Positions 1 to 5,150 of a stretch of DNA of 57,478 nt are shown piece after piece (within the stretch, counting starts at the first letter, position 1; each line of letters begins with the position of its first letter). The translations under genes were made by a program, and so were the position numbers. Source of the stretch: Gammaproteobacteria bacterium (lineage in GTDB: Bacteria > Pseudomonadota > Gammaproteobacteria > DSM-19610); assembly GCA_026197075.1 (NCBI GenBank), contig JAPHQV010000007.1, positions 1 to 57,478 on the forward strand. Direction: 5' to 3'. Under the pieces are notes generated by a model. It did not search any database, was not told where the DNA came from, and worked only from the letters and a program-made list of their open reading frames with translations.

Positions 1-57
1 AGCGGCCTCTGGCCGCGAATGGCCTGGCTGCCGGGCGGTTCGCGGCCAGAGGCCGCT
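1..57. repeat. REP-like perfect inverted repeat
   Basis: The arm AGCGGCCTCTGGCCGCGAA (1-19) recurs as its exact reverse complement at 39-57 with a 19-nt loop. It sits about 100 bp upstream of the tmRNA gene. Similar GCGGCC-type palindromes are common intergenic repeats in gammaproteobacteria. The left edge may extend beyond the window. Confidence 0.75.
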
Positions 58-147: not shown

Positions 148-250
148 GTAACAGTACTGGGGGCGACATGGTTTCGACGTGGGTTGCGAAACCCCAGGTG
201 CATGCCGAGGTGCAGTTCACCTTCGTAAAACAAACTGCAAACTTATAGTT

Positions 251-283
251 GCCAACGACGACAACTACGCACTCGCTGCTTAA
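251..283 (+). other. tmRNA proteolysis-tag reading frame
   Basis: The resume codon GCC is followed by codons for NDDNYALAA and TAA, giving the tag ANDDNYALAA. The final LAA is the usual ClpXP/ClpAP recognition end. The upstream TATAGTT matches the region that positions the resume codon in other tmRNAs. Confidence 0.9.
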
Positions 284-504
284 AACCCAGTAGGGTGCCG
301 TCAGACTGGGGCCGTGCTTATGCGCCCAGACCCTGGCGTCGATTCTCATAAGCTCGCGAGGAAGCTTGTCCGGGGCGGAATCGTTAAAACCTTACCGGGA
401 TCGCCCAGCGTTTTCCCTGCCCGTCGGGTAGCGCTGGGTTAAATAAATAGACGCGGATAAGCATGTAGAGCCGAAGGCAGAGGACTTGCGGACGCGGGTT
501 CGAT

Positions 505-774
505 TAACACAATGGTCGCCACGGGGAGTGATCCCCGTTGGAAAAGAGGGCTCATACGGTGAACGCTACAGGACAGGGGTCCCAAGCCAACGCCGTCCGG
601 TGAAGGGGAAACCCGTAAGCCGGCTAGAGACTCATAGGCTCCTAACGAGCATGGCTCCATGGAGTACTAGGGTGGATCACTGCCAGGGGGCAAGGATCCA
701 CAACACGCCCTCCCCTGCCGGCAACGGCAGGTGAAGGAATAGTCCAGCCCTGGATGAAAATCCGGGAACAGCTG
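505..774 (+). mobile_element. Group I intron in the tmRNA T-loop
   Basis: This is the 270-nt insert between tmRNA T-loop positions. Features that fit a group I intron: the 5' exon ends in U (504) and the intron ends in G (774). A possible internal guide GTCG (515-518) can pair with exon CGAU, with a U-G pair at the splice site. Hairpin ACGGGG/CCCCGT (521-538) looks like P2. GACT (629-632) can pair with AGTC (741-744) as P7, within the typical AGAGACT and AATAGTCC core elements. A GAAA-capped hairpin (749-766) looks like P9. It carries no ORF. Splicing is required for a functional tmRNA; self-splicing is inferred. Confidence 0.88.
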
Positions 775-795
775 TCCCGCCGCCTCCACCAAACC

Positions 796-4089: not shown

Positions 4090-5150
4090 CCCGTACCCTG
4101 CGCCTGACGTCCGCGGACGCGGTGATCGATGCCCTCGGCACCGATCACCCGGCCGTGCGCCTCAAGGTGACGCTCGCCATCGGCGAACAACCCGAGCTGC
4201 TAGCACGCTATGGTGCCGAGGGCGCGGACACTATCGTCAGGACACTCTGGGAACGGCTGCAGGCCGAGCCTGACGCCACGGTCCGCCAGGGCCTGCTGCA
4301 CGCCCTGCGACAGCTGCCGCACGAGGCCGTGGTCGCGCACTGCACCGACATCCTGGACCGACCCGACCATGCGCTGGCCGTGGCGGCGGCCACCGTGCTG
4401 GCCGGCCATGCAGACGACAGGCTGCCCGTTGCGCTGCGCCTGCGGGTGCGCCTGCTGGCTGGTGATGATGACGCCATCGCGGCATCGCTCGATGCCGGGT
4501 ATGCAGAGGCCTGGCTTGACGAACTGGCCGGGCCGTACGGCCCGCTGGCGCGGCAGCGGCTCGCGCCTTTCCCCACCCGCGCGCTCGAACTGCTCGCACC
4601 GCACCTGGCGCAACTCGCGCCGGAAGGACAGGCCTGGCTCGTCTCCCTCCTCAATGCCACGACGCTCACCGACCAGACCGGTCTGCTCGACGCGGCCCTG
4701 GCCAGCCAACAGGTCCCGGTACTGGTGGCGGCACTGCGACTGTGCGCGGAACAATCCGTGCCTGAAGCCACTCTCGTCCGCGCGCTGGCGCTCGGCGAAC
4801 ACGCGCATCCGGATGTGCGACTGGCCGCCTGCCGACTGCCGATAACCGCAGCGCTGCGCAGCGAACGCTATGGGAACGAACGCGATAGCCGGGTACGGGC
4901 CGCGCTGCTGCGGGACGTGGACGCAGGTACAGCCGAGGGATTCGCGCTGCTCATCGCGGCACTGGAAAACGGCGGCTGGCGTGAACGCACGGCAGCCGTG
5001 GAGGCATGCGTCGCGCACGGCACGCCGGTCATCCCGCGCCTGCGACAGGCCGCGCGGCAACATACGGGCGCCTGCCGGGCGGCGGCCAGCCAGGCGCTGC
5101 TGCGACTCGGAGACGAGACGTGGCTGGAGGCGGCGGCGTTCAGCGATTGA
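4086..5150 (+). CDS. HEAT-repeat protein
   Basis: This 354-residue protein is alpha-helical and alanine/leucine-rich. It is built of repeated units of about 30-40 residues such as HPAVRLKVTLAIGE, DATVRQGLLHALRQLP, HPDVRLAACRLP and DSRVRAALLRDV, which is the HEAT-type signature used as a protein-binding scaffold. No signal peptide is visible, so it is likely cytoplasmic. The ATG at 4086 overlaps the stop of the previous gene. Its last 11 bp overlap the convergent phosphorylase-like lipoprotein gene. The partner is unknown. Confidence 0.78.
   Translation: MTRTLRLTSADAVIDALGTDHPAVRLKVTLAIGEQPELLARYGAEGADTIVRTLWERLQAEPDATVRQGLLHALRQLPHEAVVAHCTDILDRPDHALAVAAATVLAGHADDRLPVALRLRVRLLAGDDDAIAASLDAGYAEAWLDELAGPYGPLARQRLAPFPTRALELLAPHLAQLAPEGQAWLVSLLNATTLTDQTGLLDAALASQQVPVLVAALRLCAEQSVPEATLVRALALGEHAHPDVRLAACRLPITAALRSERYGNERDSRVRAALLRDVDAGTAEGFALLIAALENGGWRERTAAVEACVAHGTPVIPRLRQAARQHTGACRAAASQALLRLGDETWLEAAAFSD

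Follow-up and report, generated by a model that had tools for sequence, protein, structure and literature searches.

A T-loop group I intron in ssrA and an adjoining LAGLIDADG endonuclease gene as a candidate collaborative homing pair

The window, the whole 57,478-nucleotide stretch of contig JAPHQV010000007.1 that was analysed (Gammaproteobacteria, assembly GCA_026197075.1), carries near its start a tmRNA gene, ssrA, that is divided by an insert and followed on the same strand by an endonuclease gene. The features of this region are as follows.

159-504, + strand: ssrA (tmRNA) exon 1, from the acceptor 5′ half to the T-loop TTCGAT (cmscan with RF00023; ARAGORN on the spliced sequence)
251-283, + strand: tmRNA tag reading frame, ANDDNYALAA and stop (ARAGORN)
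505-774, + strand: predicted group I intron of 270 nt at T-loop position 7, between TTCGAT and T (-1 U, terminal G, T-arm restoration, covariation and the same site in relatives)
775-791, + strand: ssrA exon 2, comprising the T-arm 3′ half, acceptor 3′ half and CCA (sequence reading and ARAGORN)
796-828, + strand: intrinsic terminator of ssrA, a 15-pair stem followed by a T-rich tail, standing between ssrA and the endonuclease gene
886-1346, + strand: free-standing LAGLIDADG homing-endonuclease gene (PF14528, 28.1 bits, cut-off 22.5; alignment with its relative L054)

Exon 1 of ssrA ends in ...GCGGGTTCGAT and exon 2 is TCCCGCCGCCTCCACCA. The match to the Rfam tmRNA model RF00023 covers 167-506 (187.8 bits, E 2.6e-76) and does not extend beyond the T-loop. 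ARAGORN recognised a tmRNA neither in the window nor in the unspliced ssrA stretch; with the insert removed, it finds a complete 363-nt tmRNA with the tag ANDDNYALAA. A sequence-only reading had proposed a tmRNA gene at 159-791 split after TTCGAT by a 270-nt insert, and RF00023 and the sequence place it there to the base; the 363-nt product with T-arm and acceptor stem that it predicted is the only form that ARAGORN recognises. ARAGORN misses such intron-split tmRNA genes, which calls for caution. Unspliced pre-tmRNA has no T-arm and is therefore not a working tmRNA, and the insert would be expected to be spliced out. ssrA is single-copy in the assembly, as judged by a search of the genome with RF00023. 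A second ssrA was considered and rejected, the remaining matches (16-29 bits) falling below the 47-bit cut-off, and the earlier expectation of no intact copy elsewhere in the genome holds. An assembly artefact was likewise rejected, as a congener carries a 98% identical insert in the same place.

The contig begins inside a near-perfect 57-base inverted repeat (window 1-57, AGCGGCCTCTGGCCGCGAA...). Similar copies occur at several places in the congener G001, one of them between smpB and ssrA. smpB was not found in the assembly, probably because the contig begins inside this repeat. In G001, smpB lies ~183 nt 5′ of ssrA, behind the dispersed inverted repeat that marks the start point of this contig. 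Loss of smpB was rejected, since the G001 gene order puts smpB just where this contig begins, and the gene most likely falls in an assembly gap.

The sequence-only reading had assigned the insert to the group I introns and suggested a covariance-model search. The Rfam model Intron_gpI (RF00028), a match to which is customary but not defining, gave no match up to E 10 in 480-830, and the structure was therefore drawn by hand and then tested by covariation. The predicted helices are listed below.

501-506 with 513-518, + strand: P1, with the splice-site wobble U504.G515 (U.G in 25/25 sequences)
521-527 with 532-538, + strand: P2, both-side changes in 7/7 pairs (25-insert alignment)
546-551 with 707-712, + strand: P3, enclosing P4, P5, P6, P6a, P7.1 and P7.2; covaries
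556-560 with 592-596, + strand: P4, nearly invariant
597-600 with 620-623, + strand: P6, covaries
629-632 with 741-744, + strand: P7, crossing P3; invariant in 25 sequences, pairs read from sequence
639-642 with 661-664, + strand: P7.1, covaries
672-676 with 697-701, + strand: P7.2, within P3
714-719 with 726-731, + strand: P8, within the P7 span
749-755 with 760-766, + strand: P9, GAAA loop at 756-759; both-side changes in 5/7 pairs

Among 14 close homologues, 95.7% of cells pair and the covariation score is 0.269, against 0.109 in shuffles and ≤0.076 in slid versions of the structure. Over 25 inserts from two subfamilies, 96.5% of cells are paired and covariation reaches 0.509 versus 0.176 in shuffles. 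Compensatory changes are found in P2, P3, P6, P7.1 and P9. P3, P6 and P8 vary on both sides yet stay paired, and the near invariance of P4 and P7 is neutral. The insert therefore presents a group I core of helices P3-P8 with the P3/P7 pseudoknot, together with the splice sites of the class, a -1 U paired with G in P1 in 25/25 sequences and a terminal G774; the terminal G, P7 pairing and GAAA-capped P9 named in the sequence-only reading are all present. Its removal from the T-loop restores T-arm and acceptor stem, as in intron-form tmRNAs. Four U residues, at positions 1, 2, 6 and 7 of the loop TTCGATT, correspond to the four subsites 2, 3, 7 and 8 described in the available text of PMC11915505, and the -1 U and terminal-G rules place the site at position 7, the commonest known according to that text; introns are known here, as the sequence-only reading had stated. 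No recognisable endonuclease ORF lies inside the intron, a chance frame at 486-734 having no Pfam match. By position, splice-site rules and covariation, the insert at 505-774 is assigned to the group I introns as a further member of the published tmRNA set.

The intron itself turns out to be of a known kind, and the more interesting part is the adjoining endonuclease gene, which was absent from the earlier reading and starts 95 nt downstream of ssrA. The frame at 837-1346, after the terminator, matches LAGLIDADG_3 (PF14528) above the Pfam cut-off and its product is 71% identical to the nearest relative, at locus L054. The natural start ATG886 (MDVKQL; MDVKKL in L054) is out of frame, as the sequence is one base short at ~902-903 relative to L054, and the coding frame stays open from TTG837 to 1346. 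The motif is YIDGLIDGEG here and YIAGLIDGEG in relatives, with GEG invariant in the alignment. The structural model (pLDDT 94) has an I-CreI-like fold, and the best PDB matches by both sequence and structure are the homodimer enzymes I-CreI and I-MsoI. Profile, motif and fold thus all identify a LAGLIDADG homing endonuclease. An intact copy was not found in this genome, where the gene is frameshifted near its start while relatives are intact, and is therefore a probable pseudogene; in the congener, the 5′ end of the copy is gone. In close endonuclease pairs dN/dS is 0.07-0.26, a ratio indicating that the genes were kept by purifying selection before decay.

The association of intron and endonuclease was examined in 369 evenly drawn Gammaproteobacteria genomes, using a profile of 26 endonucleases and a covariance model of the intron 3′ part. 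The endonuclease was detected in 17 genomes and the intron in 22, with both in 15 (Fisher p 1.2e-19). All 17 endonucleases are beside the tmRNA gene, which carries the intron in 15, and in these 15 pairs the two genes share a strand, with the endonuclease following the tmRNA 3′ end at ~61-177 nt; the pair in G054 is divided by a contig end. The two genomes without an intron, G003 and G033, have a broken copy beside ssrA, with a stop and a lost 3′ part in G003 and frameshifts and a lost motif in G033. Conversely, 7 of the 22 intron genomes lack the endonuclease, apart from remnants in 2 of these 7. The exact uninterrupted 32-base T-arm and acceptor sequence was found in 141 of the 369 genomes, none of which has an intact endonuclease, and in no case did an uninterrupted GGGTTCGATTCCC T-arm have an intact endonuclease next to it. 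A phylum-level sample yielded no further intron genomes.

Among eleven genomes of the same family with a readable ssrA, intron and endonuclease come and go. G004 has the intron and an intact gene, G019 the intron and a deleted gene, and G013 the intron alone. The intron is absent from G003, where the gene is broken, and five genomes have neither. Exon 1 differs by 2% between G013 and G003. Downstream of ssrA in G013 (L045), where the intron is present, toxin-antitoxin-type genes apparently replace the endonuclease, as read by eye. In G033 (L143, L146), the tmRNA 3′ end and the endonuclease pseudogene are duplicated 8.4 kb apart with 99% identity, a pattern as left by an island integrated at ssrA.

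When GTDB genomes were scanned with the endonuclease as the only query, with no reference to tmRNA, 77 loci were returned, and an intron-bearing tmRNA is present at 62 of them. The endonuclease is downstream on the same strand in 36 (Proteobacteria, Nitrospirota and others), downstream on the opposite strand, and so convergent, in 21 (Bacillota), and inside the intron in 5; the gene is full-length at 50 of the 62. The flanked tmRNA genes have introns of 236-453 nt (median 277), and the tmRNA-endonuclease spacing is 28-308 nt with one outlier of 606 (median ~74). The spliced T-arm is GGGTTCGATTCCC in 59 of the 62. Six full-length genes, mostly from Patescibacteria, are beside intronless tmRNAs (L072, L074, L076, L082, L094 and L115), and this 13-mer occurs in none of those six tmRNAs; at L119 it is present beside an endonuclease fragment only. 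The close relatives L066, L091 and L110 have no recognisable tmRNA within 3 kb. In a quick tree with many weakly supported forks, the Bacillota set, the set of Proteobacteria, Nitrospirota and Patescibacteria, and the in-intron set are largely separated from one another, which suggests that the arrangement changes rarely while the link to tmRNA persists. Endonuclease distances in the codirectional set correlate at 0.37 with those of the intron versus 0.68 with those of the tmRNA exon, and the partial correlation between endonuclease and intron given the exon is 0.23 in the codirectional and 0.53 in the convergent set. The signal of co-inheritance of endonuclease and intron appears only modest.

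A further 56 endonuclease relatives are in virus-classed contigs. In 20 of these contigs (18 distinct) searched with cmscan, a standard or permuted tmRNA was located near the endonuclease in 16. The endonuclease gene is antisense inside the T-loop intron in L173, L176 and L193, and inside the intervening segment of a permuted tmRNA in L175 (3001-3408) and L178 (3001-3390). L187 has a split tmRNA at 141-1400, in which a group I intron fits T-loop position 3, with a distant endonuclease relative 17 nt away. The best annotated phage match is Sphingobium phage Lacusarx (L230), where the endonuclease overlaps ssrA (1923-2468 and 2418-2811). That record names the gene 'HNH endonuclease' but the sequence matches the LAGLIDADG family, and such annotations beside tmRNA should be read with caution. 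Distant phage relatives (~22-40% identical) are found at other genes, namely a tRNA cluster, thyX, a DHH phosphoesterase gene and near terminase, and serve as an internal control; the tmRNA link therefore marks one clade and not all LAGLIDADG proteins. Two loci have further features. A Pistol ribozyme (Rfam) lies near the tmRNA of virus-classed contig L193, at 4342-4409. L124 contains a 16S rRNA match at 134-1897 that is ~230 bases longer than the model (1764 vs 1533), with a distant LAGLIDADG gene near it and a group II intron domain downstream.

At least five arrangements are found: downstream of the tmRNA in the same or in the opposite direction, in the intron in sense or in antisense, and beside or inside an intronless or permuted tmRNA. 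Introns lacking an ORF recurrently have a free-standing endonuclease gene nearby, the combination that characterises a collaborative homing pair. We consider it likely that the two form a two-part mobile unit that spreads by such homing, with the intron giving protection and the endonuclease decaying later. The group I intron would splice itself out of the pre-tmRNA and would be the half of the unit without its own endonuclease gene. The other half would be the small homodimer-type LAGLIDADG endonuclease whose gene lies outside the intron, immediately 3′ of ssrA, and which is predicted to cut uninterrupted ssrA at the T-arm GGGTTCGATTCCC, an almost palindromic sequence that would suit a homodimer. 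Repair from the intron-bearing copy would then transfer the intron along with exon 2, the terminator and the endonuclease gene. As it splits the target, the intron would shield its carrier from cutting, and once it was fixed the endonuclease gene could decay, as in this genome and its congener. Splicing, cutting and its precise position, and the joint transfer of the intron with the endonuclease gene are proposed from comparison of sequences. What counts for this reading is the structure and position of the intron, the genomic link to tmRNA, the purifying selection on the endonuclease in close pairs and the lack of any intact endonuclease at an uninterrupted canonical target. Counted against it are the intact relatives beside intronless tmRNAs in Patescibacteria and phages, the modest distance correlation (0.37), which makes long-range joint transfer no more than a possibility, and the three close relatives with no tmRNA nearby. 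As the T-arms of those intronless tmRNAs are unlike the canonical one, the target of their endonucleases may differ or lie elsewhere in the gene.

The same observations bear on other explanations. The endonuclease might copy only itself after cutting somewhere within the tmRNA gene or in its 3′ flank, the intron being a passenger at an unrelated site nearby. That the endonuclease stays linked to intronless tmRNAs in Patescibacteria and phages, permuted genes included, and that endonuclease distances track the exon more than the intron would both fit. However, an intact endonuclease and an uninterrupted canonical T-arm never occur together, despite 141 target-bearing genomes in one sample, and relatives inside tmRNA introns share the same T-loop site, with L187 at a neighbouring one; we regard this explanation as rather unlikely. 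Some LAGLIDADG proteins act as maturases, and if the flanking protein were needed for splicing of the tmRNA intron, the very strong linkage would be functional and not selfish. Such a role is disfavoured because introns persist without the gene, which is missing or reduced to a remnant in 7 of the 22 intron-bearing Gammaproteobacteria genomes, frameshifted here and 5′-deleted in the congener, and because relatives also occur beside intronless tmRNAs; it is judged improbable. Islands use tmRNA 3′ ends as integration sites, and the linkage could merely reflect such a hot spot, as the duplication in G033 might suggest. A median spacing of ~74 nt, with order and orientation conserved within clades, speaks against this, and cargo brought by islands would neither consist of a single protein clade at constant spacing nor occur inside introns, making this explanation hardly credible.

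Collaborative homing thus remains the preferred reading, and a wider proposal is made with more reserve: on balance, one LAGLIDADG clade appears to be dedicated to tmRNA across many phyla and phages, in at least five arrangements, and, through collaborative homing, to drive group I introns without an ORF into ssrA. This would be the first such system on bacterial chromosomes and would explain the spread of tmRNA introns though few carry an endonuclease gene. Of the 883 published intron-form tmRNAs, which span 21 phyla (PMC11915505, available text), about 96% lack an endonuclease gene in the intron, and their wide spread calls for an explanation; a dedicated endonuclease just outside the gene would account for it, and collaborative homing, described so far for phage genes, would be seen to act also on a conserved RNA gene of bacteria. 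The active pair, the decayed endonuclease, the lost intron and the endonuclease inside the intron line up as successive natural stages and offer a direct test of how composite mobile introns arise.

I-CreI and I-MsoI have the same single-motif fold as the endonuclease family described here. Their genes are located inside rRNA introns of algal organelles, whereas the endonucleases here are mostly encoded outside the intron, beside tmRNA. Intron-form tmRNA genes were reportedly first described by Williams in 2002. In the available text of PMC11915505 (Nawrocki, Petrov and Williams 2025), which reports 883 of them in 21 phyla, only genes inside the intron were counted, giving an endonuclease gene in 36 of the 883, and P7.1 is the region of most of these insertions. 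The intron described here shares T-loop position 7, the -1 U, the terminal G and the lack of an internal endonuclease with those published, and its 270 nt compare with a mean of 293 bp in the founding set. That text contains nothing on endonuclease genes beside the tmRNA gene, whereas here one adjoins it, and a search of the openly accessible literature returned no report of endonuclease genes flanking tmRNA. Collaborative (trans) homing has been described for a free-standing endonuclease and the psbA intron of cyanophages (Zeng et al. 2009, as reviewed in PMC3984707). That case and the others reviewed there concern phage protein genes, whereas the system proposed here involves chromosomal ssrA in many bacterial phyla and a LAGLIDADG enzyme with a putative cut site in the T-arm.
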